NCBI GenBank assembly: GCA_031254805.1
Contig: JAIRTP010000051.1
Coordinates: forward strand, 1 to 41,085
From: Bacteroidales bacterium
GTDB lineage: Bacteria > Bacteroidota > Bacteroidia > Bacteroidales > WRLA01
Reading direction: 5' to 3'
Length of the DNA stretch: 41,085 bases
Part shown: positions 9,001-28,748 of the stretch, piece by piece
Layout: the number at the start of each line of letters is the position of its first letter
How positions within the stretch are numbered: the first letter of the stretch is position 1
Notes under the pieces: generated by a model
What the model was told of the DNA's origin: nothing
What the model saw: the letters and a program-made list of their open reading frames with translations, nothing else
Databases searched by the model: none
Program-made: the position numbers and the translations under genes

Positions 9001-11900
9001 CAGCCGTTTCCGTCAGTTATTTGCAAACGATAATGTCCCGCTCCCATGGTAGCGTCGACAATCAATAATAATTTTGTCTCTCCGATAATAGATTGCTCGT
9101 CTTTGAACCATTGATAAGAGGGGTTATTAAAATCTTCGGGATTTTGCAAACGTATGATGACTGTTCCGTTAGGGCCGCAAATATTTTGGCTGCTCGGAAT
9201 TATCGACATCTCCGGAATTCTGATCGAATTACCGGATTGCGTAATCGTTTCGAATCCTGATACCGCAGAGCATCCATTAGCGTCGTATATTTGTGCAAAA
9301 TATACTCCCGGTTCTCTTGCGTAGAGAACCGGCGAAGTTTGTCCGCTCAATATCTCATTATCTTTAAACCAAATAAAAGTAGCGTTAGGGAACAAGATGT
9401 TATGATTTTTAATTCTTATCTGTACTACGCTGTTGATACATACATTATTACTCGGGTCTAATTCCAATTCGGGGCTGTTATTGATTATTCCTCCGCTTGA
9501 TTCAACATTAATATTATTGGATAAAGCCGAACAGGAACCCGTTGATACCAATAAACGATAAACGCCTTGTTCGCGGGCAATGTAAAGTGGCTCATTTGCT
9601 CCGGCGATAGGCATATCATTTTTGAACCATTGATAGGAAAGCGCTCCGACGATCGTATTGGTCAATTTCATCACAACAACGCCTTCTCCGCCACATAGCG
9701 CATTGTTGCCTGTTGTAGAAGCAATTTGCGGATTGGAAATCGTATTGTTGTTTTTGGTTAAATTAAATGTTTCCGTAATTTTAGAACACTCTCCGGAAAC
9801 AATTTGAACATAATAACGGCCTTCTTCTGTCGCTTCGTAACTGTATTTGCCGCCTGTTTGTACGATAACGTCGTTGCGATACCATATAAATGCAGGATTA
9901 ATATAAGAAGAAGCATTGTAAACTAACAATAAAATGCTGCCATTGTTTCCGCATATTTGTCCGCTGGCAGGATATCTTTGGAATACAGGCTCCGGCATAT
10001 TGTTATCTTCATATGTCAATACGTCGAAAGGATCTGATAAAGCAGAACACTCTCCGTCGATAAGCCGGACTTGATATTTACCTTCCGCAGTCGCTCGGAA
10101 TGTAGGCATGTTAAGTCCTAAATCCGAAATAACTTTTCCGTCTTTGTACCATACATATTGAACGTTTTGCAGATTGCTCACAATATTTTCTACTTGAAGT
10201 ATTAATACTCCGTGATTTCCGCATACATAATGAGTTCCCGATGGAGAAGTAATAACAGGCTTTTTAATCTCGCCGGTTTCAGATTTTGCAACTGTTATAA
10301 AGTTATCCGAAATAGCGGAGCAGCCGTTTGCAACTACGCGTACCATATACGATCCCTCTATGGTAGCAAAATATAGAGGATTGTTGCTTGCTTGAACCAT
10401 TTCGCTTCCTCTATACCATCTATAAGTAGGATTGTCGCCATATTCTATATAGTTTGACACATAGAGTAACGCGCTTCCGTCTTCTTCGCAAATCTTACCA
10501 TTAGGAGGCTCAAGCGTTAAAACAGGCGCCCTAAAATTGGTAGTAGTTCCTTGAGTTATTTCTTGCTCATTAGAGAAAATAGAACAGTTCCCTTCGGCTA
10601 CCAATACTTTGTATCTCCCTGGGGTACGAACTACATAACCGTAATCAGTTTGATCGTATTGCGGGATGCCGTCTTTAAACCACAGATAAGTTTGTCCGGC
10701 TTTAATATATTCTGCCTGAATGCGCAATGCGACTATACTTTGCGGACCGCAAAGTTCATAAATCTCGTATGTGCTATGAATGGATATATTATCAATACTA
10801 TTCTCAGAATGTCGTATTTCTTCAATATCGGAAATAGAGGTGCAATTCGACGATTTGATCATTACCACGTAGTCGCCTCCTTCGGTCACTTGATAGGCGG
10901 CATAATCCAATCCTGTGCCTTGGTATATGATTTTTCCATCTTTGTACCAAATATATTGCGCAGTTGCCAGATATTTGTCTGTATTGCTTACATATAATAA
11001 CATATTTCCGCCTTGACATAATTCTGTAGCGTCTGCCGGAATTTTTCCAAGCTGAGGAACTTCAATTTCTCCCTCTATAATCAGAGGCACCGTTAGTCCG
11101 GAAGAGAAAGCAGAGCATCCCGCCGTATTGGTGATCTGCAATGTATATGTTCCTTGCCGTCCTGCAATATACCAACTTAAATTAGCTCCGGAAATCGGGA
11201 CGTTTTCATAATACCATTGATAAGATGCAACGCTTGAGCTTGGAGGCGTGAGCATGGTTAATAGCGCTTTTCCTCCATATTGACACATCCTGTCGGGAGT
11301 TGAAGAAATTGTCGGCGGATTTATCGAATGGTTATCATCTCTTATCAGATTTACGACATCTTCTGAATGATTTCCGCAACTTCCTATAACTACATATACC
11401 TGATAATTGCCCGCTTCATTGGTATTGAGATAGGGATTTGTTCCTTGTCGATACAAAACGCTGTCTTTGATCCAATAGTAAATAGCCGAACTTGGATAGT
11501 CGTATGAATTGGTTACCTGCAAATTGACGTTTCCCGTATTACCGCAAATAATATTATTGGGAAAAGCTTGTAAACGGGGCGTATTAATATTTCCGTATCC
11601 GTTTTTTACATTGATCTCATTTATCGTAAATCCTTGACAGATATTCTCAATTACATAACATTTATATATTCCGGGTTCATTAGCAAAATATATCTGCGAC
11701 GTAGCGTCGTTAATGACTTGGTCGTTAATATACCATTGATAAATAGGCGTATGCTGAGAAGGGGATGCCGGATTTGCTATTAACATCACCGAAGCGCTAT
11801 CTCCGCAAAGCGTTGCCGATGAAGGCGTTGCCGAAATAGCATAGACCAAATAAGGGCAATCTATCCCTTTCATTAAGTTATTGGATAAATTACAGTCCAT
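1..11900 (-). repeat. Tandem array of 45 Ig-like domain repeats inside the giant gene
   Basis: Counting the conserved Y-x-W codon motif (plus-strand ccattgata and variants) gives 45 copies from about 11731 down to about 13. The average spacing is about 262 bases (87 residues). Spacing varies only a little (about 250-300), as expected for one domain per unit. Most units are strongly diverged in DNA, so the array is old apart from the 2.27-3.83 kb stretch. Each unit keeps a cysteine before the central Trp and another after it. Confidence 0.85.
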
Positions 11901-14900
11901 ATAATTTGTCGCAGGAAAATGTCCGCCGTCGTCGATGATTCGCGCCCAAATAATGCGATTGTTAAATTGACCTGTAATAGTATATTCCCTTTCATAAGTT
12001 TCTCCGGGGAAGATATCTCGTCCGACGATTAATGTTTGAATAAATGTTGCACTTGCAAAATTATCGACGTTTACGGCATTTGCATAAAAAGCAATAGGCG
12101 TATTAGCGTTGATAGAAGCTGTTCCGGTATTTCGAATAGTAAGCGTAACAGTAGCGCTTGTCGGATATTGTCCCGTGAAATTTATCCTTACTTTCATGTT
12201 CGAAAGAATGGCGTCGGGTTGGCGAACTACGGGGACGTATCTATGTCCTGCTTTTACTATCGGTTGCTGAGTCCACGAAGCATTGTAAGGCGTAATAATG
12301 TTGCCGTCGTCATCCAAATAATACGTCAATATCGGTTGCGGTTTGGTCGGCACCGTTAAATTTGCATTTATATGTAAGGGATCATATAATCCTTGGTTCC
12401 ATACCGGAGGACAAGGCGCCCACTTTTGATAACCGGGCGCATATTCATATACGGTAATAAAACTTCTTGTAGGCCCGGAAGATCCGTTGTCTCCGGAAGG
12501 ACGATTTGTAACAATAATATTGGCGCTTCCATCCATGTTCACGTCGGCAATAGCAGGCGCTTCAAAACCGGTACGGGAATAACAATCAGTACGGAAAAGA
12601 ATAGAAGGATGCGTTTCGGTAGCCGTAGAAGGAATATAGTCTGCGCCTCCTTTTTTCGGAGAAATAACCCTGATTGTATAAACGTCTCGATAACAGAGAT
12701 CTTTTGCCCCATCATTATCAAAGTCGAACATGGTTATTCCGGTAATATTGGAGTTATCCTGATGCCCTAAAGCCCAGCTTAATTTTAACCGATTTTCGAT
12801 GAGCGGTTCCCTGGCGTCGTAAGTCAATGCAAAAACATGCCCGCGCGTAGTGCGATCATTATCCCTGTTAAAAACCCTGTTAGAATTATTTGTTTGATTA
12901 TTATCCCAACCCGCGGCGGTTCCGCTATTGCCGGCAGTACCTCTTCTGAGGGTTTCATCCGACAACGGATGGAAGGGGATACCGCTTCTCCCTGCAACAG
13001 AAGCGTTACTCCTATTTATATATAGAGCGCCTGTAGTCAAACATATCTCCGGTAATTTTTTAGAATATCTAAAGCCGTCCCACCCATCTGATTTACCATT
13101 AATATCGCCTATGAATGGTATAGAGAAGTTGCCGTGATCGCCATCGGCGTAATAAGTTGTGACGGCTTTTGTTTCAATTGTTCCATTTGATGGATGATAG
13201 TTCCATGCGGCAATTAACCCAACATAGGAACGCGTTCTTCTAACATGCGTGAAATAAAGAATTTCCAATTGCCCATCTCCGTCAATATCGGCGACTCTTG
13301 TGAAGCCATCCGAGAGATAGAATGTTTTTTTTTCGCTACCGTTGCTGTTGACCGGAACATCAACGCTTGTCGGACCTTCTATTGTTTTATAGTTGTTAAA
13401 TATATGATTGGTTAGCGAGTTAAATTGAAATTTATGAATACGCGTGCCCGCAATAATTTCCAGTTCGCCGTCGTCGTCGATATCCACTATTGCTTTTACC
13501 TGATTGTATTGATCGGCATATACATTATAGCCGGGACGACGTCCTATCAGAGCGTGGTTGCGAATGTTATCTGAAGCGGATGGAGTGATATAATGATCAT
13601 CGCTATAACCTGCATAATAAAGCCCTGTCCCGCTGGATAAAGAACTGGGTCTCCAATTATAAGCGGGACCGTCCCATGCCATCAATAATGCTCCGGTTTG
13701 AGCATTATATATTTTATTATTAACAATTACTTCCGGAATTCCATCGCCGTTTAAATCGGTAATATAAGGCATGGCTGGACCAAATCCGTCTGCCCAATCA
13801 TTGTCTGTCGTAAGAGGCGCTTTGTGACCGACGCTTCCGTCCCACATTTTGGTAAATCCATTTATTAATCTAGTATATATATTGATAGTCGGTTTCAAAC
13901 AATATATTCGCCCGTTGGTTCCTGTTTCCACTACAATGACTTCGGTCAATCCGTCTCTATCTACATCCGCAATGGCCAATTGAGAAGGCGATCCGTGATA
14001 TGGAGTACTGCGAAGCCTGAATTGGTTTCCGGAGGCATAGTCCGCCCCTAAAGACTGGAGATCAAAACTTGTTAATAAGACTCCCGTTTGTCCGTCAAAG
14101 ACATTGATATAACGTCCGTATGCATCAAGGGAAGTACCTTTCGTAATTCCCAACGCAACCATTTCCGGTTTGCCGTCGCTATCAAGGTCTCCAACTAATG
14201 GAATAGAAAAACCGTCAATATAACAACTTTCGGGAGTGGTTGGCGTATTGAATTTTGTGTGAATGCCGAAAGTGACATTTTTCGGCATATTGTCAATACA
14301 TTCGGCATCTGCAGGAATTATGTTAAGCGGCAGATCATATTCTGGCGAGTATCTGTCCACGATAGATCTGCTTATTGAAAATACAGAACAATTGTTATCG
14401 CTGACCAGTACTTTATATACTCCTTCTTTGTCAACGATTATCTGAGGCGACGTTTGATTATACAAGGGTTCATCATTTTTAAACCAAAGATATGTCTGTC
14501 CCGGGAGAATACTGCTGGACGCCAAGTTCAGTTTAATTGAAGTATTTTCGTATGTTAATTCGTAAATGTCTCCTATTGAACTGATATACGGCGTATTTAT
14601 CGAAGTGGAGTTTCTTGTTAGTTCAATAATATTTGTCTTATAAGTAACGCCGGATATAACGATATCCGCTTGATATGTACCTGATTGGGTCTCAAAAATA
14701 TTTTGATTCCCCGATGTATTCGGGATTATGGCGCCGTTTCTATACCAATAAATATTACTTGCATAGGAAAAACTGCTTTCGTCAACGGATAATGTTACTA
14801 CCCCATTTGTCCCGCATAATACAGATGACGGAAAAGCGGAAATGGATAAGATTGCCCTAGCCGTAGTAGTTTCAGGAATTAATTGGCGCGCTTCCTCGTC

Positions 14901-15503
14901 ATAAGGTTCGGCATGTCCCGGTAATTCCCCTTCTATAGAATATTGTATAGATGCCATGTCTACAGAAGAAGGCTTGGAAATATATGACGACGACTTGTTC
15001 TGAGGATTGAAAATCCATGTCTCGTCTGTTGTTTCATGTTGATCATTAGAATCTGTATTTTCTCCCTCGGCAAAATGAAACTTGAATGAAGCCGTATGGA
15101 TGCAATCGTCGCTTTCTTCTTGATTTTTTTGAATCGTTTCTTGATAAGCGAGGTCGTTTTCATTGCTGGAAGCAGTTTTTCCTCTGATCTTAAAATTGTC
15201 TGTATCTTCCGACGCTTTGTTGAAAGCATGATTTCCGCTTGCATCTAAAATCATATCTCCATTTATTGCATCTGGTTTTGGTGATCGCGTCGCATCTGTT
15301 AATCCTACGCCTTGATTGGCGAAAGTTATTGCATTACTTTCACTACTTACATCCGGTAGAGAAATCCCAGTTGCTCTTTGCGTTGTTAGAAATAATTGAC
15401 CACATGGAGCGTCTCCATAGATAGGCTCTTCTTGCGCAAGATTTAAAATAGCCTGCGTTAAGAGTATTGCCAATAATCCGATTTTTGTAAATTTTTGTTT
15501 CAT
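1..15503 (-). CDS. Giant secreted multi-Ig-like repeat protein (3' end outside window)
   Basis: The frame starting at ATG 15503-15501 stays open to the left edge, giving at least 5167 codons with no stop. The N-terminus (MKQKFTKIGLLAILLTQAI...) is a signal peptide. A low-complexity stretch follows, then two Ig-like domains (Trp motifs near residues 254 and 340). Residues about 430-1010 carry seven DxDxDG-type FG-GAP/VCBS motifs such as DLDSDG, DVDRDG, DLNGDG and DIDDDG. Residues about 1090-1210 resemble CARDB. From residue about 1240 onward there are 45 tandem Ig-like domains (Ig_7/CHU_C-associated type), each with an ICG..G segment, a Y.WY..G core and a later GC. The final visible residues still read Y.WYEG in frame. 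By analogy with its secreted neighbours, a T9SS sorting domain probably lies beyond the edge, but it is not visible. Its role is likely a surface adhesin or stalk, which is inference. No enzymatic domain was recognised. Confidence 0.9.
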   Translation of the reverse strand, partial: MKQKFTKIGLLAILLTQAILNLAQEEPIYGDAPCGQLFLTTQRATGISLPDVSSESNAITFANQGVGLTDATRSPKPDAINGDMILDASGNHAFNKASEDTDNFKIRGKTASSNENDLAYQETIQKNQEESDDCIHTASFKFHFAEGENTDSNDQHETTDETWIFNPQNKSSSYISKPSSVDMASIQYSIEGELPGHAEPYDEEARQLIPETTTARAILSISAFPSSVLCGTNGVVTLSVDESSFSYASNIYWYRNGAIIPNTSGNQNIFETQSGTYQADIVISGVTYKTNIIELTRNSTSINTPYISSIGDIYELTYENTSIKLNLASSSILPGQTYLWFKNDEPLYNQTSPQIIVDKEGVYKVLVSDNNCSVFSISRSIVDRYSPEYDLPLNIIPADAECIDNMPKNVTFGIHTKFNTPTTPESCYIDGFSIPLVGDLDSDGKPEMVALGITKGTSLDAYGRYINVFDGQTGVLLTSFDLQSLGADYASGNQFRLRSTPYHGSPSQLAIADVDRDGLTEVIVVETGTNGRIYCLKPTINIYTRLINGFTKMWDGSVGHKAPLTTDNDWADGFGPAMPYITDLNGDGIPEVIVNNKIYNAQTGALLMAWDGPAYNWRPSSLSSGTGLYYAGYSDDHYITPSASDNIRNHALIGRRPGYNVYADQYNQVKAIVDIDDDGELEIIAGTRIHKFQFNSLTNHIFNNYKTIEGPTSVDVPVNSNGSEKKTFYLSDGFTRVADIDGDGQLEILYFTHVRRTRSYVGLIAAWNYHPSNGTIETKAVTTYYADGDHGNFSIPFIGDINGKSDGWDGFRYSKKLPEICLTTGALYINRSNASVAGRSGIPFHPLSDETLRRGTAGNSGTAAGWDNNQTNNSNRVFNRDNDRTTRGHVFALTYDAREPLIENRLKLSWALGHQDNSNITGITMFDFDNDGAKDLCYRDVYTIRVISPKKGGADYIPSTATETHPSILFRTDCYSRTGFEAPAIADVNMDGSANIIVTNRPSGDNGSSGPTRSFITVYEYAPGYQKWAPCPPVWNQGLYDPLHINANLTVPTKPQPILTYYLDDDGNIITPYNASWTQQPIVKAGHRYVPVVRQPDAILSNMKVRINFTGQYPTSATVTLTIRNTGTASINANTPIAFYANAVNVDNFASATFIQTLIVGRDIFPGETYEREYTITGQFNNRIIWARIIDDGGHFPATNYMDCNLSNNLMKGIDCPYLVYAISATPSSATLCGDSASVMLIANPASPSQHTPIYQWYINDQVINDATSQIYFANEPGIYKCYVIENICQGFTINEINVKNGYGNINTPRLQAFPNNIICGNTGNVNLQVTNSYDYPSSAIYYWIKDSVLYRQGTNPYLNTNEAGNYQVYVVIGSCGNHSEDVVNLIRDDNHSINPPTISSTPDRMCQYGGKALLTMLTPPSSSVASYQWYYENVPISGANLSWYIAGRQGTYTLQITNTAGCSAFSSGLTVPLIIEGEIEVPQLGKIPADATELCQGGNMLLYVSNTDKYLATAQYIWYKDGKIIYQGTGLDYAAYQVTEGGDYVVMIKSSNCTSISDIEEIRHSENSIDNISIHSTYEIYELCGPQSIVALRIQAEYIKAGQTYLWFKDGIPQYDQTDYGYVVRTPGRYKVLVAEGNCSIFSNEQEITQGTTTNFRAPVLTLEPPNGKICEEDGSALLYVSNYIEYGDNPTYRWYRGSEMVQASNNPLYFATIEGSYMVRVVANGCSAISDNFITVAKSETGEIKKPVITSPSGTHYVCGNHGVLILQVENIVSNLQNVQYVWYKDGKVISDLGLNMPTFRATAEGKYQVRLIDGECSALSDPFDVLTYEDNNMPEPVFQRYPASGQICGNNGSILLLVYNASSYINPAFIWYRNDVIVQTGGKYSYEATEEGRYYVQIVSGECSKITETFNLTKNNNTISNPQIASTTGNNALCGGEGVVVMKLTNTIVGALSYQWFKNDMPIAGANEPLYIAREQGVYRLLVSTGSCSALSNNINVESSGGIINNSPELELDPSNNVCINSVVQIRIKNHNILFPNATFIWFKDNEILSGQTSPVLYAREPGVYFAQIYDANGCSAVSGFETITQSGNSIRIPEMSIIPSSQNICGPNGTVIIRLQNPEDFNNPSYQWFKDEQSIIGETKLLLIVDATMGAGHYRLQITDGNGCITYSYRFDVEYLNGSSAVKPVLIPDPVADLTADPMTGTIYVGGQMPDKALLTVAVDPNAIEYRWYSHEGFLKVSAPPFGVEVTHTITLNDELVSGTYFVQAIYNNGCAANSKSYHLEVNGAYLNPPQLKSTPESNNICNDNEGKGMAFIEVINHHEYINPVYQWYRNGVALQGTEATTEPLLVTDIAGVYTATVTAAPTVGSPTVTSAPSQPVTLTVSGSIAKPNLKNIGKDICNANSGGAILHITNYTDYSNPEYTWTKDGVVILTENTPSLVATETGAYTVAVLDGSCWTMSENITVSPGAGSITKPEIHILGSANLQICGREGTVILKLKSPQNYTNATFQWFRNNIPLENETDSILRATWDNSGVSTIDKYRLQVVMNESGCTGLSDPIQVNTYEIPTVKPVIKSDPYGAQICGNNGEILLYVENASSFIGATYYWIKDGIYYTAGVDLDRCFVTETGSYTVYVVGNPCASESLPFVIFQGGTNITKPVVNSEGGNDLCAGNSAQLLRLNMETIPYSNPQYQWYKGTTKIANATKPYYFAAADGEYKLQVVDGNCSSFSSSIIINPKSISGYMVQKPILEIIPNAKIICENGIVLIKVSNASSFNPDQTTFIWYNGNNERLNETSSALYVDKPGIYFVHVLSNGCSSISEEIEIMPSSSSVHSPVELVTSPPNVNFICDNYGSVVIGLANPENYQGMSLQWFKDNAPIVPTQSERYYTATEGGTYRLRIYDGNCSTFSDPISLTERPGGATTQPDFTASASTVICGEYGSVMLTVKDHQDYATGTKFVWFHENSIIKEGTEPFYEAIGSQAKGRYYLQAIFPDGCVALSEYKTLTYDANSPFEDRPEINSEPLQNNICGDYGVVVLSLRERDDLIGDNITYRWYKNNISIVGATSKIYRAREAGSYRLRISYGDCSVISDPVEVTKTASDRKEPQLTIDPQNGQICGIYSSVLLSVANPEDFSQGSIYIWFNGNTVVERGADLTIYEAKTEGDYSVVVVDGACATISKEQEVNNSPFGDIKNDPIISAIPYPDYKICGENGVVVLTFENPDMFEGYAIQWYNGRDPISGSEGQQTVYYATETGSYRIRVALENCAAFSTSIEVESNPSGSIEKPHLNMNPPTGYLCTDGGSVIIYVENSDQYQSGSLYKWYRGTTIVEEGIDMDEYETATIGNYHVVVLEGNCASMSLPANVVSGGGSTIKPRIYSTSGDNNICEENGSIILMLENRSDYSEFVTFRWHDQNNNIIGNATDPLLIVTTAGEYRIEVIEGNCSGFSMPFEVTKDGGGNINAPTLLKSPVNGELCGPESSVALYVENADMLYPEATYNWFRNNELLTESSSLIYVEEEGVYFVQVVDKDCSAASSLVEITSSSSILTVSISSNTENYHLCDGNGKLILRMDDHLSTEYIGAIFQWYKDELLLPNENSYMLIVTDAGSYKLYVEVGNCSAYSQSTSINEYGGGNEINEPTFSTVPASGELCGSNSFVEIAVSNHNLYESGTSYFWYKDETPIQGNNTHILTVREAGNYLVEVYDGICTTVGAIVISAGSSSLETPVIASTTNQSQLCEDGGSILLNLNNQVNYAPYGALEFQWLKNGVKIDSELGRNEIYLATEEGAYSLYLSVSGCVLISNTYHVVKSESNTIDPPAIAQEPESGNLCGESSIVTLSVSNFEGASFAWYKDYMNTVIATTPEIKVSEAGTYLVVVQSGACTTAGVVEVENHETSLDAPVIGSTNGTNIWCTENGNVLVALLNKESYSGKNISLQWFRNDEKITGAEGEREMLIVNDNATYQLKISIDGCILVSNSITLIPNVAMIDPVAFDTKPQTGTLCGENSQVTITETTFGALGATYEWFKDFVYGTPLSTTSSYTATEAGTYIAVVSFNGCTNVGVIEIKDSGSNFGAPFIGAVNGSNIICSIGGKSLLSILNKEEYAGYEVAYQWFKNDIKIAGVEGSREMLIVEDTGKYQLQITVEGCILASNIIKLIANVAMIENPVFTIDPESATLCGKGSKVVISETKYVALGATYQWYKDFIHGTPLSVTSTYTVTQAGVYVVVVSANSCTTVGTIEVNDSGATIDAPEIGTVNGTNILCTLGGKAILSILNKENYSGQNISYQWLRNGVKMTGAEGSREMLIVNDDQEYQLQITIDGCILVSNIIKLTPNIAMIGDPAFTTDPETKMLCGNGSQVTINETNFSAMSSASYQWYKDFTYSDPLSVTSTYTATEEGIYIAVITVSNCTSIGIIEIRQSATQFEKPAIASTTGQTKLCEDGGLLLHLSNASMYAPSSIDYQWIKNGVDITGELGTKKTLIVKESGDYQLRITVDECIMRSDVLTIDPVSGDVIDKLIVSRDPVNGTLCGDNSFVILTVETAYPGGTTYAWYKNYEDNIIGTEESLTVSETGNYFVVVKSGGCTAVSDIEEVIDGTALLVTIASLHGETKICEPNGKVILALVNPDHYAGATYQWYKGLTPITGATDNWHIAEKADNYRLHVKQNACSVFSNTITLGEGTGTITPPTVISMPSTGSTICGKYGVVVLSLNNASSYASYQWYQNNQIITGEDKFQLSATTNGVYYVRVVDDNGCSSISSPIVVNYDETGSIERPEISVTPPSIPNGGNVTVTIDNATTDYSADVIFYWYRGTEELVAERGNTVITTNVEGIYKVLAVDGECASWSMNINIENDGCSMPGIPNLVAIPSSLKVCNGGSVLLQLENKDAFIDHQPTYEWYLNGAAIAGNTPALEVTQAGNYQIKVIISVPSTCSAYSSAITVEKGANSINTPEISSLANAGKICGKEGSVILRFENPEDFTNGTETYRWFKDNYAYDNNTYNINDKQGYILTVSTPGKYRLVVLDGECAALSTEKEIIFDGNTEIAKPIISKIPDEKNICVGGFIKLTVSTVQAYVAPQYIWYRDSEVVQQGSEASYFAEEAGIYFVQVVDGGCSSTSQPEVITMSTQQIATPQLSTYPNLQNPNICGAEGAVTIRVTNSEEYQNPAYQWYEG
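2260..3830 (-). repeat. Two-domain super-repeat (about 524 bp unit, three well-conserved copies)
   Basis: Within the Ig array two domain types alternate. Type A has its Trp motif at about 2650, 3173 and 3697. Type B has its Trp motif at about 2381, 2911 and 3437. Spacing between like copies is 523-530 bases. DNA identity between A copies is visible by eye (for example the conserved atcatggcaacatt-like stretch and the ctctggatccttct block). More diverged copies flank them (A-like at 2124 and 4217, B-like at 3959). This indicates expansion by duplication of a two-domain unit. Confidence 0.75.
11880..14200 (-). other. FG-GAP/VCBS-like block plus CARDB-like segment within the giant gene
   Basis: Seven acidic DxDxDG-type motifs lie at about 14160-14190, 13935-13975, 13730-13770, 13458-13490, 13262-13300, 12700-12730 and 12510-12545. 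In the protein they read as DLDSDGKPE, DVDRDGLTE, DLNGDGIPE, DIDDDGELE, DIDGDGQLE, DFDNDG and DVNMDG. Such motifs are typical of calcium-binding beta-propeller-like FG-GAP repeats. The segment encoded by 12230-11880 has the NTGTA...NNL pattern of CARDB domains. This block separates two Ig-like domains from the long Ig array. Confidence 0.7.
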
Positions 15504-21234: not shown

Positions 21235-22659
21235 TTATAATAACGGGCTGAACAATCTCATCACCGATTCGGCAAATTTCTTATACCAAGGACGTTTTTT
21301 CCACGCTGCAAGCGTCAATTCGGCGCATAATTCCATTTCTCGAATAAATATATCTTTGTTTTGAGCGGCAATTTTTTCGTCGTAAATATAGCTGTTGATC
21401 TCAAAACTTAACTCCAAACTTCTGAAATCCATATTGGCGGAGCCGATTACAGAGAGATAATCGTCGGCGACTAACGTTTTTGCATGAATAAACGTATCGT
21501 GGCGTTCATATATTTTAATTCCTGCAAGCAACGATTCCTCGTAATATGAATGAATGGCGGGATCCATAAAAAAGAAATCCGATTTGTGCGACAACATGAT
21601 TCGAACGTCGACTCCTCGCAACGCGGCGGTTTGTAACGCTTTCAAAAGCGACTCCGACGGTAAATAATAAGGCGTTTGAATATAGATGTATTTTTGAGTA
21701 ATATTAATAATGTGTATTATCGAAAGCAACAAATACGGCCAAGGCGAAGCCGGAGATTCGGGGACAATTTGCATTAAATTGTCGGAATAATTCTCATATG
21801 GAGGAAAATAAGGTTTGAAATCGGTAATTTGTTTTCCGTCGGAACAAAAAAAGTAATACAAAAACGATGATTGCAATACATGCGCCGCTTGTCCCATAAT
21901 ACGCAAGTGCGTATCGCGCCATTCGTTGACATATTCGTTGCCGATATTCATGCCGCCGGTGTAGCCGATTTTTCCATCGATGACGACAATTTTTCGGTGA
22001 TTCCGATAATTTATCTGTCTTCTGATCCACGGAAGCGTACTTTTAGAAAAGGCGACCACTTCGACCCCTGATTTCTTCATTTCGTTATAAAATCGCGGAG
22101 ATACGGCAATATTGGCAATATTCTCATGGATAAATCGTACTTCTACTCCTTCGGATGCCTTTCGCATCAATATCTCTTTTATCTTCTTGCCTGTTTCATC
22201 TTTCCGAAAATAGAAGTACTCCATGTGTATATGGTGTTTTGCATTTTCCAGATCCTCGACCAATGCGTCGAATTTACGCTTTCCTATTGTAATTACCTCT
22301 ACGTCATTTCCGTACGTCGTACGTGAATCGTCGCTTTTTTCTAACAGGTCGATTAATGTGGTATATTCTTTTCGTACCTTGTGCTGATGTATTTCAAAAT
22401 CAACTTGACTGGGATTTTGCACAAGGCAGGAGAGAACTTCGCGGGAAAATTTCTGATAAGACGCGTCGCTGTGTCGTTTTTTTCGACTGTCTTGTCCGAA
22501 CACAAAATAAAAGATCAAACCGATTGCAGGTAAAAACACCAAAACCAAAAGCCATGCAACCGTTTTGGTAGGAGTGCGATTTTCGGAAACCACCACTAAT
22601 ATTGTGCCTGCAATTAATAAAATATAGATTATGCTAAAAATTAGAGAGAGAACAGACAT
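21235..22659 (-). CDS. cls: Cardiolipin synthase (phospholipase D family)
   Basis: Membrane enzyme that joins two phosphatidylglycerols to make cardiolipin and glycerol. The 474 residues include two N-terminal transmembrane segments (about 3-24 and 33-54). Two HKD motifs follow: HRKIVVID (H221, K223, D228, then GGMN) and HAKTLVAD (H392, K394, D399, then GSANMDFRS). Length and layout match the bacterial ClsA type. A longer in-frame start at 22710 was rejected because it lies upstream of the -7 box at 22700-22707. ATG 22659 begins directly with the hydrophobic segment. The gene is divergent from the DsrC operon. Confidence 0.92.
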   Translation of the reverse strand: MSVLSLIFSIIYILLIAGTILVVVSENRTPTKTVAWLLVLVFLPAIGLIFYFVFGQDSRKKRHSDASYQKFSREVLSCLVQNPSQVDFEIHQHKVRKEYTTLIDLLEKSDDSRTTYGNDVEVITIGKRKFDALVEDLENAKHHIHMEYFYFRKDETGKKIKEILMRKASEGVEVRFIHENIANIAVSPRFYNEMKKSGVEVVAFSKSTLPWIRRQINYRNHRKIVVIDGKIGYTGGMNIGNEYVNEWRDTHLRIMGQAAHVLQSSFLYYFFCSDGKQITDFKPYFPPYENYSDNLMQIVPESPASPWPYLLLSIIHIINITQKYIYIQTPYYLPSESLLKALQTAALRGVDVRIMLSHKSDFFFMDPAIHSYYEESLLAGIKIYERHDTFIHAKTLVADDYLSVIGSANMDFRSLELSFEINSYIYDEKIAAQNKDIFIREMELCAELTLAAWKKRPWYKKFAESVMRLFSPLL

Positions 22660-22699
22660 ATATTTATCGCTTATTATAGATTTATAAAATATCAAGACA

Positions 22700-22707
22700 C
22701 AAAAATA
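22700..22707 (-). promoter_or_regulatory. -7 promoter box of cls
   Basis: The minus strand reads TATTTTTG, a perfect TAnnTTTG match about 40 bases upstream of ATG 22659. No good -33 element was seen. Confidence 0.45.
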
Positions 22708-22814
22708 CAAAATTTGTGCTGTATTTTTTTTCGCTTCGCGAATGATTTTTTAGAGATCAGACATGTTATTATTTCATATTAACGTTTTTTGCAAGGGTTG
22801 AATGAAAAAATATA

Positions 22815-22822
22815 TATCTTTG
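22815..22822 (+). promoter_or_regulatory. Promoter of the DsrC operon
   Basis: TATCTTTG is a perfect -7 match. TTTG at 22788-22791 is a possible -33 element with a slightly long 23-base spacing. Transcription would start near 22828, about 20 bases before the first gene. Confidence 0.55.
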
Positions 22823-22847: not shown

Positions 22848-23099
22848 ATGGATAAAACAAGTAATCAGGAAAAATGCCCTAATGCCTGTGGGTGTCAATT
22901 GCTTCATCTTTCTGGATTTTTGAAAGATGAAGCGCAAAAAGAATATTACAAAACGACATTTTGTATTGACGACTCGCCCAACGGATTCCAAAAATGCAGA
23001 CGATTTCAAACAAAAAAGGCATTAAATTTGTGTCCCGATTTTGTTTTGCCTGATTCTTTGTTGACAATAGATGAGATCATGGAAAAAATGGAAGAATAA
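22848..23099 (+). CDS. Small cysteine-rich protein, first gene of the DsrC operon
   Basis: An 83-residue soluble protein I do not recognise. It has six cysteines: C10, C14 and C16 in KCPNACGCQ, plus C39, C50 and C62. This pattern could bind a metal or an Fe-S cluster, but it fits no motif I can name. There is no signal peptide or membrane segment. The start is ATG 22848; the preceding TTG at 22845 is in frame but less likely. It is followed after 36 bases by dsrC on the same strand and sits directly behind the operon promoter. A role in the same sulfur or redox process is therefore likely by position only. Confidence 0.7.
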   Translation: MDKTSNQEKCPNACGCQLLHLSGFLKDEAQKEYYKTTFCIDDSPNGFQKCRRFQTKKALNLCPDFVLPDSLLTIDEIMEKMEE

Positions 23100-23135
23100 T
23101 TTTTTCTCATAAATAATTAGAACTGATAAAATATT

Positions 23136-23429
23136 ATGGTAGAATTGAAATTTGACGGAGACGGTTTTTTGACAAACCCTGAAATCTGGAGCGAGGAGGT
23201 AGCAAAACAAATTGCCCAAGAAGACGGCATTGATATGAGCGATCAGCATTGGGCGGTTGTACGCATTATTAGAAGTAATTATGAAGAAAAAGGTAATGCG
23301 CCGATGATACGCACTATTTGTAAAGAAACCGGATTGAAATTAAAAGATATTTACGAATTGTTTCCATTAGGGCCTGCGCGTGGAGCTTGCCGAATTGCCG
23401 GATTACCTAAGCCGGACGGCTGCGTATAA
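23136..23429 (+). CDS. dsrC: DsrC-type sulfur carrier protein (TusE/DsrC/DsvC family)
   Basis: A 97-residue small cytosolic sulfur carrier. The C-terminal arm reads GPARGACRIAGLPKPDGCV. It has Cys-85 and the penultimate Cys-96 separated by ten residues, the arrangement that defines true DsrC. TusE of tRNA thiolation normally keeps only the last of these cysteines. In sulfate reducers the two cysteines form the DsrC trisulfide, which is the substrate of the membrane complex DsrMKJOP. Here dsrC is followed after 23 bases by a DsrM/NarI-like gene and then a DsrK-like gene, which supports the same partnership. DsrAB is not encoded in the window. A third cysteine (C62) is also present. Confidence 0.92.
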   Translation: MVELKFDGDGFLTNPEIWSEEVAKQIAQEDGIDMSDQHWAVVRIIRSNYEEKGNAPMIRTICKETGLKLKDIYELFPLGPARGACRIAGLPKPDGCV

Positions 23430-23452
23430 GCCTGTTTTAAGAATATAAATTT

Positions 23453-24085
23453 ATGTATTGGTACCAATATCTGAGTTTGGGATGCCTAGGAATATGCGTC
23501 CTTGCTTGTTTGTGGCATTTTTTTAGGCTGATACGGTTGGGAAAACCTAAAGATCTATCCCGAAAAAGCGGGAATGTGACGAGGGCGGAGATCTATTCTT
23601 ATACCCTCGCCATGATGCCGAATAATAAAGAGTCTGCATACTTGCACATTCCGGCCTTTACGTCCGGGATTTTTCTTCACATAGGAACTTTTTTGAGTAT
23701 AGCGCTGTTTGTAGTCTTCTTTTTTGTCGATCCAAAAATATTTCCTGAATGGCTTACATGGACGTGCGTTGTGATATTACTCGTATCCGCCATATCCGGA
23801 TTATCGCTTCTTATCAAAAGAATGGTCTCCGGAAAATTAAGAGATCTATCAAATGTCGATGATTTTATTTCTAATTTATTGACAACGTTGTTTCATATTG
23901 TTACGATTTTCTATCTGATTTTTGCTTATCAGGCGGCAATTTATTACTACATAGAAGTATCTTTATTGCTATTATATCTTCCTGTTGGAAAATTGCGTCA
24001 TGTGATATATTTCTTTGCGGCGCGTTATCATTTAGGCTTTTTCTATGGCTGGCGTAACACATGGCCTCCTCAAAAAATGGATTAA
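23453..24085 (+). CDS. DsrM/NarI-like membrane protein (probable b-type haem quinone subunit)
   Basis: A 210-residue integral membrane protein with about five hydrophobic helices (roughly 3-25, 70-92, 102-122, 141-163 and 164-187). Histidines at positions 22, 65, 76, 148 and 183 lie in or beside helices and are candidate haem b ligands, as in the NarI/DsrM/HdrE family (nitrate reductase gamma fold). Known members exchange electrons between the quinone pool and a partner Fe-S protein. It ends 5 bases before the start of the DsrK-like gene, so the two are probably translated together as a membrane complex. Family assignment rests on topology, length and context; detailed similarity could not be computed. 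Confidence 0.72.
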   Translation: MYWYQYLSLGCLGICVLACLWHFFRLIRLGKPKDLSRKSGNVTRAEIYSYTLAMMPNNKESAYLHIPAFTSGIFLHIGTFLSIALFVVFFFVDPKIFPEWLTWTCVVILLVSAISGLSLLIKRMVSGKLRDLSNVDDFISNLLTTLFHIVTIFYLIFAYQAAIYYYIEVSLLLLYLPVGKLRHVIYFFAARYHLGFFYGWRNTWPPQKMD

Positions 24086-24090
24086 CGGTT

Positions 24091-25398
24091 ATGGAAAAAT
24101 TGACAAAAAAACAAATTGACGACGCTGTCCGGCTTTTGAAGATGCCGCCTGACAGCAAGTTGGTTACTCATTTGAACGCTTGCGTGCATTGCGGCTTGTG
24201 CGGCGAGAGTTGCATGTATTATAAAACAATGCGCGACAATCGGTTTATTCCTGCCAGAAAGGTGGAATTGGTATCGTCGCTATATAGAAGGTATTGCACT
24301 TTGACGGGAAAAATAGCTCCGTTTTTGGTCAATGCCAAAGAACTCGACGAGGGAACGGTCAAAGAGATGGTCGATATGCTCTTCGGCGCATGTACAATGT
24401 GCGGACGTTGCGTGAAACATTGTTCTATCGGAGTTGATATCTCATACGTCGTCCATTTTGGACGGAGAATGTTGGCGGCTATGGGATTAGTTCCCGACAC
24501 GTTGCAAGCCACTGTGAACGCGGCTCTTGATACGGGCAATAATATGGGAATTCCTGTGGGGGATTTTGTGGATACGATTGAATGGCTCGAAGAAGAGTTG
24601 ATAGACGAATATGGAGAAAATGCGCGTATTCCGTTGAATGAGAAAGAAAAAAAGGTTCTGTATACGTTGAATCCGCGAGAGCCGAAATTCTTTCCGCTTT
24701 CGATTTCCGCTATGGCGACTATTTTTTATGCCGCCAAAGAGAGTTGGACGATTTCGACTAATATGTACGATGTGACTAATTACGGCATATTTAACGGCGA
24801 CAATGCGCAAGCCGGGCAAATTGCTAAGCGTTTGCATGACGAGATGTATAATATGCAAAGTAAACTCTTGGTTTTGGGAGAATGCGGACACGGTTCTCGC
24901 GTCAATCGTTGGGAAGGGCCGAATTATTTGAAACATCCTTATGACTTTGAAGTCGCGACGGTTGTTGAGTTGATCAATTCTTATATCCGAAACGGTAAGA
25001 TCAAATTAGACAAAAATCGTAATCAGGAATTGGTTACCATTCATGATCCGTGCAATTTAGTTCGTAATGGCGGATTGTTGTCGGAAATCCGTTTTGCGGT
25101 GAAAAACTCTGTCGCTAATTTCGTAGAGATGAATCCGTGCGGAACGGATAATTTTTGTTGCGGAGGCGGAGGCGGACAATTAGCTATGAGCGAATATAAC
25201 GAACGCCGTTTGAAAATCGGAGAGATTAAAGCGGAACAAATTCGCGCTACGGGCGCAAAGATTGTGGCGACGCCTTGTCATAACTGCGTAGATCAACTGT
25301 CGCAATTGAATCATACGTATAAGTTAGGCGTCAAGATTAAAACAATTGCCGAATTGACGGCGGACGCTTTGGTATTTGACGAAGAAAACGAAGATTGA
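24091..25398 (+). CDS. DsrK/HdrD-like Fe-S protein (heterodisulfide reductase-related)
   Basis: A 435-residue protein with two ferredoxin-type CxxCxxCxxxC clusters (C31/34/37/41 and C101/104/107/111). A C-terminal CCG-type region follows: C265 in ECGH, DPC at 321, C350, CCGGG at 356-357 and CHNC at 396-399. CCG domains of HdrB/HdrD/DsrK hold a non-cubane [4Fe-4S] site that cleaves or forms disulfides. The expected substrate here is the DsrC disulfide or trisulfide, by context. Neither [4Fe-4S] motif has the proline that usually follows the last cysteine. The start was taken at ATG 24091. ATG 24061 would overlap the upstream gene by 25 bases and adds only ten residues. Confidence 0.85.
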   Translation: MEKLTKKQIDDAVRLLKMPPDSKLVTHLNACVHCGLCGESCMYYKTMRDNRFIPARKVELVSSLYRRYCTLTGKIAPFLVNAKELDEGTVKEMVDMLFGACTMCGRCVKHCSIGVDISYVVHFGRRMLAAMGLVPDTLQATVNAALDTGNNMGIPVGDFVDTIEWLEEELIDEYGENARIPLNEKEKKVLYTLNPREPKFFPLSISAMATIFYAAKESWTISTNMYDVTNYGIFNGDNAQAGQIAKRLHDEMYNMQSKLLVLGECGHGSRVNRWEGPNYLKHPYDFEVATVVELINSYIRNGKIKLDKNRNQELVTIHDPCNLVRNGGLLSEIRFAVKNSVANFVEMNPCGTDNFCCGGGGGQLAMSEYNERRLKIGEIKAEQIRATGAKIVATPCHNCVDQLSQLNHTYKLGVKIKTIAELTADALVFDEENED

Positions 25399-25428
25399 TT
25401 TTAGAACAATTAAAAAAACAGAGATAAT

Positions 25429-26583
25429 ATGATTTACTTAGATAATTCTGCAACGACATTCCCCAAACCGGATGTGGTTTATAGTTTTATGTCGGATTTC
25501 TATCGAAAACATGGCGTTAATCCGGGACGTTCGGGCTTTGATGCGGCTATCGAAACCGAAGAGATTATTTTTAATACCAGAAAATTATTAATGGATATAT
25601 TTCATGGGGGAGGAGATCCTAATCGTTTGACATTTAGCTCTAACGCTACCGATTCACTCAATATTATTATTCAAGGATTGGCGGAAAAAGGCGATCATGT
25701 AGTTACGACTATGCTGGAACATAATTCCGTATTACGTCCGTTATATTGCTTGCAACAACAAGGAATTATCGACGTAACATACGTTCCCTTCGATGAAGCG
25801 GGATACGTCGATCCCGGCGACATAAAAAAAGCGTTACGTCCTAATACAAAATTCGTCGTCTGCACGCATAGCTCCAATGTGATCGGAACAATACAGCCGC
25901 TTTCGAAAATCGGCAAAGTATGTAAAGAAGCAGGCGTTATTTTTGTTGTAGACGGTAGTCAGGGAGCTGGAGCAGTTGAAGTGGATATGGTTGCTTCCAA
26001 TATTGACGTATATATTTTTACCGGTCATAAATGTTTAATGGGGCCGACGGGAATCGGCGGTTCTTATGTGCGCGAAGGAATAAATATTCGTCATACGCGT
26101 TATGGCGGAACGGGCGTCCGATCGGCTTATCCGGCGCATTTGGAAGAATATCCGTATCGTTTGGAAGCGGGTACATTGAACCTTGTCGGAATTGCAGGAT
26201 TGAATGCCGGCGTAAAATGGGTGCAGGAACAGGGAATAGAAAAATTGCATAAGCAAGAGTTGGCGCTTTGGGATAAATTACGCCTTGCATTGCAAAATAC
26301 CGACGGCGTTACTACTTACTGCGCAGTGGATGCAAACAATCAAAATCCTGTTTTGAGTTTTAATATTAACGGTTTTGAAGCGGGCGATGTTGGTATGATG
26401 CTGGATGTAGATTATGATATCGCCTCTCGTACAGGATTGCAATGCGCTCCCAAAGTTCATGAGCGTATCGGCACGATCCATATGCATGGAACTGTTCGTT
26501 TGAGCATAGGGCCATTTTCTACTGAAAGCGACATTGACGCCGCTATCGAAGCGATAAGAGAGATCGCCGCGTTGAAGAATTAA
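25429..26583 (+). CDS. Cysteine desulfurase family protein (class V aminotransferase fold)
   Basis: A 384-residue PLP enzyme predicted to release sulfur from L-cysteine as an enzyme-bound persulfide. The PLP lysine is K201 in FTGHKCLMGPTG. The DGSQGAG segment at 175-181 holds the PLP-contacting Asp. The persulfide-carrying cysteine is C339 in RTGLQCAPKVHERIGT, the motif of the SufS-like branch. It resembles the cysteine desulfurase family that is often placed outside suf/isc operons, so no symbol is given. It is the last gene of the DsrC operon, 30 bases after the DsrK-like gene. That position suggests it could load DsrC with sulfur, which is inference. A palindromic repeat lies just downstream. 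Confidence 0.88.
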   Translation: MIYLDNSATTFPKPDVVYSFMSDFYRKHGVNPGRSGFDAAIETEEIIFNTRKLLMDIFHGGGDPNRLTFSSNATDSLNIIIQGLAEKGDHVVTTMLEHNSVLRPLYCLQQQGIIDVTYVPFDEAGYVDPGDIKKALRPNTKFVVCTHSSNVIGTIQPLSKIGKVCKEAGVIFVVDGSQGAGAVEVDMVASNIDVYIFTGHKCLMGPTGIGGSYVREGINIRHTRYGGTGVRSAYPAHLEEYPYRLEAGTLNLVGIAGLNAGVKWVQEQGIEKLHKQELALWDKLRLALQNTDGVTTYCAVDANNQNPVLSFNINGFEAGDVGMMLDVDYDIASRTGLQCAPKVHERIGTIHMHGTVRLSIGPFSTESDIDAAIEAIREIAALKN

Positions 26584-26778: not shown

Positions 26779-27357
26779 TTATTTGCAATCTTTACGCTTC
26801 TTTTTCATCACGGAAAAATCAAATTTTCCTATTGTCTTTCCTAATTTAAAATACGTTCCGTTGGCATAAGAGATCAGTTCGGTTTTGAAATATCAAATGC
26901 GCCGTTTTTATTGATAAAAGCGCTATCGGCTTGTACGTTGACCACTTCAGTTAAAAACATGTGATGAGAACCTTGCTCAGTGATTTCTTTCATTTCGTAT
27001 TCGATGCTGATAGGCGATTCCGCAATAATTGGAGCGGAAATTTTTGTGGATGGAGCGGGCGTGAGATTCATTTCGGAGAATTTTCATGATCTCTACCGGA
27101 TTTTACGCCGCGCCAATCAGTGAAAAAAGCTAATTTTCTTGTCGTTAGATTGATAACAAGACAGCGGTTTTTTTTATGATGACTTCATAAGGGAGATGTT
27201 CCGGACAAAGACTGATATAGCATATCGGCGGATTGGCGCAGGTAGTTCCTGTTCATGCAACAGTAACGATGTTATACTCTTCGGGAGAAGCTCCGCAACT
27301 GACCATGACGACCGGCAACGAATTGACCATAGTTCCGGGTTTCCATTGTATTTTCAT
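26779..27357 (-). pseudogene. Decayed flavin reductase (flavoredoxin-like) gene
   Basis: Joining frames on the minus strand recovers about 193 residues, the usual size of FMN-binding flavin reductases. It starts MKIQWKPGTMVNSLPVVMV at 27357. Codon 35 is TGA (27255-27253), where the family motif NxVTVAWTG needs Trp. Further slips occur near 27165 (KKTA to CLVINLTTRK), near 27075 (GVKSGRDHE to SEMNLTPAPS) and near 26878 (DISKPN to LISYANGTYFKLGKTIGKFDF). The longest intact piece is 26874-27071. The ORF stops at TAA 26781-26779. One nonsense change plus about three frameshifts make this a clear pseudogene. It is not in frame with any neighbour and probably has no function. Confidence 0.85.
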
Positions 27358-27470: not shown

Positions 27471-28748
27471 TTATTTTCTCCATTCTCTTCCAATATCCTT
27501 TCTAAAATGGACGCCGTCGAATTTTATTTCATTTGCTTTTTTATAGCTTTTCGTTAAAGCCTCTTCTATTGTCGACGCTAGAGCGGTAACCGCTATAACG
27601 CGTCCTCCGGAAGTGACGACTTGATTGTTTGCATTCAAAGCTGTTCCCGCATGAAATAAAATCACATCGTCGTTTTCTTCTATTCCTGTCATGATCTTTC
27701 CTTTCTCGTAACTGTCTGGATATCCGCCGGAAACTAACATGACCGATACGGCCGTTTCCGGTTTGATACGAATGGAAGCGTTTGCAATTTCATGTTGAAC
27801 GACGGCTTCGAAAAGCGTAACCAGATCGGATTCTACGCGAGGAATAACCGATTCCGTTTCAGGATCGCCCATTCTGACATTATATTCGATCACGTAAGGA
27901 TCGCCGTCGACATTCATCAACCCGAAAAATATAAATCCGGCGTAGGGAATATTTTCCTTTTGCAGACCCGACATTGTCGGTTTGATGATGCGTTCTTCAA
28001 CTTTTTGCATGAAATTCTTATCTGCAAAAGGCACAGGAGACACGGAACCCATTCCTCCCGTGTTAGGACCGGTATCGCCTTCTCCAATACGTTTATAATC
28101 TTTAGCTTCCGGAAGTAACAGATAATCTTTCCCATCCGTAAGGATAAACACGGAGAGTTCGATCCCTTTTAAAAACTCCTCTATGACCACTTTAGAACCC
28201 GCCGTTCCAAATTTTCCCGACAACATCGCTTGCAATTCGTGCTTTGCTTCATCCAATGTCGCGGGTATTACGACGCCTTTTCCGGCCGCTAATCCATCTG
28301 CTTTCAAAACATAAGGCGGTTGTAATGTCTTTAAAAACTGCAATCCTTCTTGTAACGTATCAGGCGTAAAAGTCTGATAAGCGGCGGTAGGAATGGCATG
28401 TTTTTGCATAAACTCTTTCGCAAAATCTTTGCTGCTTTCTAATAAGGCTCCTTTTTTCCGAGGTCCGATGAAGGCGATACTTGCCAATTTTTCATCATTG
28501 GCGAAAAAATCTCCCAATCCATCCGCTAAAGGAGCTTCAGGTCCGACGACGACCATTTGTATGTCGTTTTTTAAGACGAAGTCTTTTATTGATTCAAAAT
28601 CTGAAAGATTGAGCGTTACATTCTCTCCCGTTGATCTTGTTCCCGCATTTCCGGATGCGATGAACAATTTGTCCGTTTTCGGACTTTGCGCTATTTTCCA
28701 TGCGAAGGCGTGTTCTCGCCCGCCGGATCCTAAAAGTAAAATATTCAT
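27471..28748 (-). CDS. purD: Phosphoribosylamine-glycine ligase (GAR synthetase)
   Basis: Second step of de novo purine synthesis: ATP-dependent joining of phosphoribosylamine and glycine. The 425 residues begin MNILLLGSGGREHA, the classic PurD N-terminus. The ATP-grasp motif LKADGLAAGKGV is near residues 148-159 and RMGDPETE follows in the ATP-grasp fold. Length is normal. Its ATG overlaps the stop of the upstream glycosyltransferase gene as ATGA (28745-28748), so the two are translationally coupled and share a promoter. The pairing of a purine gene with a glycosyltransferase is not an obvious pathway link. Confidence 0.95.
   Translation of the reverse strand: MNILLLGSGGREHAFAWKIAQSPKTDKLFIASGNAGTRSTGENVTLNLSDFESIKDFVLKNDIQMVVVGPEAPLADGLGDFFANDEKLASIAFIGPRKKGALLESSKDFAKEFMQKHAIPTAAYQTFTPDTLQEGLQFLKTLQPPYVLKADGLAAGKGVVIPATLDEAKHELQAMLSGKFGTAGSKVVIEEFLKGIELSVFILTDGKDYLLLPEAKDYKRIGEGDTGPNTGGMGSVSPVPFADKNFMQKVEERIIKPTMSGLQKENIPYAGFIFFGLMNVDGDPYVIEYNVRMGDPETESVIPRVESDLVTLFEAVVQHEIANASIRIKPETAVSVMLVSGGYPDSYEKGKIMTGIEENDDVILFHAGTALNANNQVVTSGGRVIAVTALASTIEEALTKSYKKANEIKFDGVHFRKDIGREWRK

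Follow-up and report, generated by a model that had tools for sequence, protein, structure and literature searches.

What could a DsrC protein and a DsrMK-like membrane pair do in a bacterium in which no sulfite reductase is found? This question is raised by an operon at positions 22848-26583 of a 41,085-nucleotide stretch of contig JAIRTP010000051.1 from a Bacteroidales bacterium (assembly GCA_031254805.1); the whole stretch is called the window below. An earlier reading of the letters alone, the original prediction, had described five closely spaced genes here, and all five open reading frames (ORFs) were indeed found at the predicted coordinates on the + strand, with intergenic gaps of 36, 23, 5 and 30 bases. 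What appears to be new is a DsrC-DsrMK module in which a cysteine desulfurase replaces sulfite reductase, while all parts except a small Cys-rich protein come from known families. No description of the operon was found in the open full-text literature. The operon may encode a DsrC redox cycle that is fed by cysteine and ends in H2S, and for this mechanism as a whole the chances are considered to be evenly balanced. The five genes are:

22848-23099, + strand: small Cys-rich protein, 83 amino acids (aa), a facultative first gene; five invariant Cys
23136-23429, + strand: two-cysteine DsrC, 97 aa; CysB is C85 and CysA is C96, plus the clade-typical C62
23453-24085, + strand: predicted DsrM/HmcE-like (NarI-fold) membrane cytochrome b subunit, 210 aa; NarI fold match, conserved His
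24091-25398, + strand: DsrK/TmcB/HmcF-like CCG iron-sulfur protein, 435 aa; start at a conserved ATG
25429-26583, + strand: predicted cysteine desulfurase (csd) of the TIGR01977 (EF2568) family; pyridoxal phosphate (PLP) Lys K201, persulfide Cys C339

The proteins of the operon

Judged by its sequence, the second protein certainly belongs to the DsrC family. It matched PF04358 with an E-value of 1e-35 (123 bits, cut-off 24.9) and TIGR03342 with 4e-30 (104 bits, cut-off 53.5). The tail GACRIAGLPKPDGCV contains C85 and C96 separated by ten residues, and C62, C85 and C96 were invariant in 38 aligned sequences. C62 is missing from the canonical DsrC of Chlorobia-type genomes. A CysB ten residues before CysA distinguishes DsrC in the strict sense from TusE, and the true two-cysteine DsrC with a C-x10-C tail of the original prediction is confirmed by these residues and by the family profiles. 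According to the literature, CysB occurs, with few exceptions, only alongside DsrAB, and TusE-type proteins usually lack it (PMC3397948). Both cysteines were present in 79 of the 111 DsrC tails compared, a number that includes genuine Dsr sets from Chlorobia-type genomes, and CysB was replaced by Ser, Thr, Ala or Met in the other 32.

The fourth protein has two CxxCxxCxxxC clusters, i.e., two 4Fe-4S motifs, and a complete C..CCG..CxxC motif, as is typical for CCG-domain proteins of the HdrD/DsrK-like kind, and all of these predicted motifs were complete and invariant in 12 aligned sequences. The conserved ATG at 24091 was taken as its start, an in-frame ATG at 24061 being less likely. The predicted identity has to be worded more broadly, as a CCG protein of the DsrK/TmcB/HmcF type, because TmcB and HmcF scored higher (284.6 bits each, below the cut-offs of 735 and 750) than DsrK of DsrMKJOP (NF045796; 237.7 bits, under the equivalog cut-off of 400). 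Genuine DsrK proteins of the same phylum reach about 700 bits with NF045796. In a DsrK tree, which did not include TmcB/HmcF and in which the root position is not fixed, 34 operon DsrK proteins were on one side of a branch with a support of 97/96. The nearest relatives were the DsrK-like proteins of two genomes of the same phylum, G647 and G659, and the DsrMKJOP-type DsrK proteins of Chlorobia-type genomes were far off; the latter end in CAID, in contrast to the full CxxC at the end of the CCG motif in the operon.

The third protein had no Pfam match and only a weak match to HmcE (1e-6, 28.3 bits, cut-off 275). No solved structure was matched by its sequence, and the DsrK-like protein had one partial match (9ojn). 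The AlphaFold2 model of the DsrM-like protein had a confidence score (pLDDT) of 91, and its best solved-structure matches were all NarI chains (Z 10.6, root-mean-square deviation 6.2, 169 aligned residues), although helical bundles can reach a Z of 13 by chance. H76 and H183 were found in all relatives, H65 in 95% and H193 in 83%. H65 and H76 share one helix and H183 and H193 are in the last helix, an arrangement that we take to resemble the haem ligands of NarI. The protein is predicted to be a NarI-fold, DsrM-like membrane subunit, with the proviso that the fold score alone is no proof for a helical bundle. TmcBC and HmcEF of the Desulfovibrio Tmc and Hmc complexes were the best NCBIfam matches of the pair, but the scores are far below the cut-offs, and the operon contains no multihaem cytochrome or NrfD-type gene. 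Genes for dsrJ, dsrO and dsrP were found neither in the operon nor in its flanks, beyond which no search for them was made in this genome.

The fifth protein scored 417.7 bits with TIGR01977 (curated cut-off 377), a family that is a hypothetical equivalog, and from this homology it is predicted to be a cysteine desulfurase. The PLP Lys and the persulfide Cys named in the original prediction, K201 and C339, were invariant in 30 aligned sequences. The protein is distinct from the other strong class-V PLP protein of the genome, which is encoded on contig C18 and is probably SufS.

The first protein has five Cys (C10, C16, C39, C50, C62) that were invariant in the alignment of relatives, and profile searches gave no Pfam or NCBIfam match. 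Its AlphaFold2 model was poor (pLDDT 58), and for that reason no fold search was made. The gene was detected in about 10 of 53 dsrC-dsrM-dsrK loci, a lower bound for a gene that is short and diverged. It was rejected as a core part of the operon, being present in only some loci. Because it is facultative, the conserved core consists of four genes, and the predicted five-gene operon holds for this core with an optional first gene. A role as an accessory protein or a sensor is possible for the Cys-rich protein.

Sulfite reductase, sulfur donors and quinones

The assembly of this genome comprises 2.2 Mb in 127 contigs and is 97% complete, and the absences reported here rest on family searches. 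No NIR_SIR protein (siroheme sulfite/nitrite reductases, including DsrAB) was found in this genome or in 28 other genomes that carry a two-Cys DsrC. The same search found the family in G647 and in Chlorobia-type genomes, which served as positive controls. DsrAB, the mark of dissimilatory sulfite reduction, is thus missing from 29 of 29 genomes, and the statement that no DsrAB was in sight around the operon can be extended to the whole genome. An ordinary Dsr set that is split over contigs was rejected on the same grounds.

TusA and DsrE are the usual sulfur donors to DsrC. Neither was found in this genome, which has one DsrC, and so the donors of a TusE relay (TusA together with TusBCD/DsrE-type proteins) are missing as well.

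The proposed link of the membrane pair to menaquinone is uncertain because the genome lacks MenD and MqnA/D in family searches and keeps only a MenA-like gene; this encodes one UbiA-family protein (L219), which is nearest to the MenA models but below their cut-offs. Among 21 carriers (this genome and 20 others), a full-scoring MenD was found in six, MqnA/D in six and neither in nine, namely this genome and eight of the 20 others. The retained MenA-like prenyltransferase suggests that a quinone precursor is salvaged, and quinone coupling through salvage is possible.

Conservation and variants of the locus

DsrC was present in 93 of 295 genomes of the order, and about 32 matches belonged to the two-Cys class, as called by score and by reading of the fetched tails. 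In 28 of the 29 relatives' loci fetched first, dsrM was beside dsrC; the remaining locus (L010/L038) has csd directly after dsrC, with no dsrMK between. Among 80 named loci, dsrC-dsrM-dsrK was contiguous in 53, and csd followed downstream in 48 of these 53, once with an intervening gene; the two collections of loci overlap in part, with one contig entered in both. The genes flanking dsrC-dsrM-dsrK-csd change between loci. Chance clustering was therefore rejected, as the order is conserved in many families amid changing flanks, and the co-occurrence in relatives that had been looked for is strong. Of the two findings named beforehand as refuting the original prediction, dsrAB elsewhere in the genome and a lack of such co-occurrence, neither was made. 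The pairwise distances of DsrK and the desulfurase were correlated with an r of 0.85, the highest of all pairs (shuffles reached at most 0.17), and shared ancestry alone accounts for some of this correlation. A mobile origin on plasmids was rejected, only distant matches having been found.

The carriers, with habitats taken from isolate names, include Bacteroidales from rumen, horse, digester, lake and groundwater and probably from termite guts, and also the cultured Butyricimonas synergistica DSM 23225 (L143), Bacteroidales bacterium CF and Ignavibacteria.

The two-Cys DsrC was accompanied by DsrM/DsrK, or by the desulfurase in L038. The inspected one-Cys dsrC genes of the same order were found in a different operon, with SQR-like and DsrE genes. 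That operon (L051-L070, e.g., L058:7817-11414) consists of a divergent Crp-like regulator, an SQR-like FAD protein, often a protein of about 225 aa, dsrC and a DsrE-like protein, the family names of the neighbours having been assigned by eye. It looks like a unit for the handling of sulfane sulfur. These sequences fit a pattern in which CysB tracks DsrMK without DsrAB here, and which otherwise agrees with the published rule.

Several variants of the locus were observed. In L037, a suf operon that includes SufS (sufBCDS) is close to dsrCMK, and a single transaldolase-like gene separates the two. In L031-L033 and other rumen lineages, dsrC and dsrM are together and dsrK is elsewhere. Hybrid operons (L093, L097 on the same contig as L048, L121, L126 and L141) have a second class-V PLP protein of about 500 aa before dsrC, a DsrE-like protein after csd and a divergent Crp-like regulator. 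By their gene content, the variants appear to tie the module to persulfide handling via several partners. A solitary dsrK in L095, L107, L127 and L136 has a MalY/PatB-like aminotransferase gene upstream, possibly a C-S lyase and another hint of a link to cysteine or cystathionine. Other groups of solitary dsrK have unrelated neighbours, and no partner common to all was found.

In the window, the genes on both sides of the operon are on the - strand, and thus the five-gene unit stands isolated and is, by its layout, a single transcription unit. Its surroundings are:

21235-22710, - strand: phospholipase D-like gene, upstream neighbour
22788-22822, + strand: Bacteroidota-type promoter-like motif TTTG-N23-TAnnTTTG, a match to the pattern that ends some 25 bases short of the first ATG, suggestive only (nine matches of the pattern in the window, 2.6 expected)
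27471-28748, - strand: purD-like gene, downstream neighbour

In the stretch from the operon to the purD-like gene, a 65-aa ORF (26874-27071, - strand) resembles a flavin-reductase-type fragment in a degraded stretch and may be a pseudogene remnant. Further away, an ORF (3-15503, - strand) that begins like a signal peptide and comprises at least 5167 aa runs off the window edge and probably encodes a giant secreted or surface protein.

A proposed cysteine-fed DsrC cycle and its alternatives

The operon resembles the DsrABCMK(JOP) system in that a two-Cys DsrC adjoins genes for a DsrM/DsrK-type membrane pair. Its genes look like those for the final step of bacterial sulfate respiration, in which sulfide is set free. 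It differs in that a cysteine desulfurase occupies the place of the sulfur source, without DsrAB/NIR_SIR and without JOP beside it. In the proposed cycle, the TIGR01977 desulfurase would take the sulfur of L-cysteine, yielding alanine and a persulfide on C339. The persulfide sulfur would be handed to DsrC at its penultimate cysteine, C96, and attack by C85 would release H2S and leave a C85-C96 disulfide (or a trisulfide, if an oxidation step is added). The CCG cluster of DsrK would then reduce the DsrC disulfide with electrons from quinol via DsrM. The net reaction would be cysteine + 2[H] -> alanine + H2S, in which cysteine would take up surplus electrons or supply sulfide in a controlled manner; control of persulfide is a further possible purpose. 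The couple cysteine/(alanine + H2S) is near -0.1 V, as estimated from formation energies, and therefore electrons from NADH or H2 could be accepted via quinone. The transfer step has a precedent in vitro, where A. vinosum DsrC becomes persulfurated on its penultimate Cys by E. coli IscS supplied with cysteine (PMC3397948). For the last step, the precedent is DsrMK(JOP), which uses menaquinol to reduce the trisulfide of DsrC (PMC10504309, PMC13232883). Further points in favour of the cycle are the conserved gene order amid changing flanks, the correlated distances of DsrK and desulfurase, the absence of NIR_SIR proteins from the carriers, the way in which CysB tracks DsrMK, the L038 and L037 loci and the lack of TusA and DsrE in this genome.

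The cysteine-to-sulfide relay without sulfite reductase that had been suggested is, with this precedent, the best reading of the locus; direction, release of sulfide and conservation of energy keep the rank of proposals in it. The parts, the active residues, the conserved gene order and the absence of sulfite reductase are read from sequence, and the transfer partners, the direction, the quinone coupling and the physiological purpose are what we infer. A more specific version, in which cysteine is a terminal electron acceptor and the DsrC persulfide is turned into H2S by quinol-linked DsrMK, a sulfite-independent sulfidogenesis that would be common among Bacteroidales of gut, rumen, termite and sediment, is put forward tentatively and seems to us rather less probable than its opposite. 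Several points weigh against the cycle. The mechanism is built on sequence, from which the direction of DsrMK cannot be read. The quinone is uncertain, as this genome and several carriers lack MenD and MqnA/D. In addition, dsrK is apart from dsrC-dsrM in the rumen lineages, five dsrCMK loci lack a neighbouring csd, and biosynthetic thiolation could equally be the reason why the genes for desulfurase and DsrC are so tightly linked.

This last possibility corresponds to a TusE-like relay, in which the desulfurase charges DsrC for MnmA (tRNA 2-thiouridine) or another thiolation enzyme and DsrMK only keeps DsrC reduced. E. coli uses such a relay, IscS-TusA-TusBCD-TusE-MnmA (PMC3397948), which has a cysteine desulfurase and a DsrC-family protein in common with the operon, and in a genome without TusA- and DsrE-family proteins a direct step from desulfurase to DsrC would be needed. 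However, the tail of TusE-type proteins usually carries a single Cys (PMC3397948), whereas CysB is invariant here and the membrane redox pair is conserved; the cysteine-fed cycle explains the need for both, which a plain TusE relay does not. DsrC is also too scattered within the order to suit a core function in tRNA (no search for MnmA was made), and this relay is regarded as unlikely. An aid in Fe-S or metal-sulfur assembly, in which DsrC/DsrMK reductively frees sulfide from the desulfurase persulfide, is given a similarly small chance. Desulfurases often serve Fe-S assembly and dsrCMK is near sufB-C-D-S in L037, but this is a single locus, no suf genes adjoin the operon in the other inspected carriers, and the probable SufS on contig C18 is a further strong desulfurase-family protein of this genome.

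The pair might also work in the opposite direction, with DsrMK oxidising the DsrC persulfide or dithiol with quinone and thereby storing or detoxifying sulfane sulfur. The Dsr machinery is reversed in sulfur oxidisers (PMC10504309), and a DsrE-like protein is encoded downstream in the five hybrid loci. Without DsrAB, TusA and DsrE, this genome would have nothing to carry the sulfur further, and the desulfurase draws sulfur from cysteine, not from sulfide, which makes this direction improbable. The relationship to G647 and G659 (family f151) bears on whether the operon could be left over from a set of sulfite-reduction genes that is in decay. In these two genomes of the same genus (L195 and L194), dsrC-dsrM-dsrK lacks a desulfurase, the DsrK-like protein is about 540 aa long as compared to about 430 aa in the operon, and DsrC shares the extra Cys (KLCKETG). 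The cluster adjoins dsrAB-dsrN-dsrL in G647, and no NIR_SIR protein at all was found in G659. Such a pair of genomes is what a Dsr remnant could look like, but in the operon the active-site residues do not vary among the many families that carry it, a desulfurase has been added consistently and DsrK forms one clade, so that a relic is judged to be very improbable.

The operon represents a large systematic exception to the association of CysB with DsrAB described in the literature (PMC3397948), and the one-Cys DsrC in another operon of the same order is a natural control. The cultured carrier B. synergistica DSM 23225 makes the proposed cycle testable. If the cycle is true, the H2S of animal guts would have an unrecognised, membrane-linked and cysteine-fed source that surveys of dsrAB do not capture, and the dsrC counts of gut metagenomes would have to be interpreted anew.

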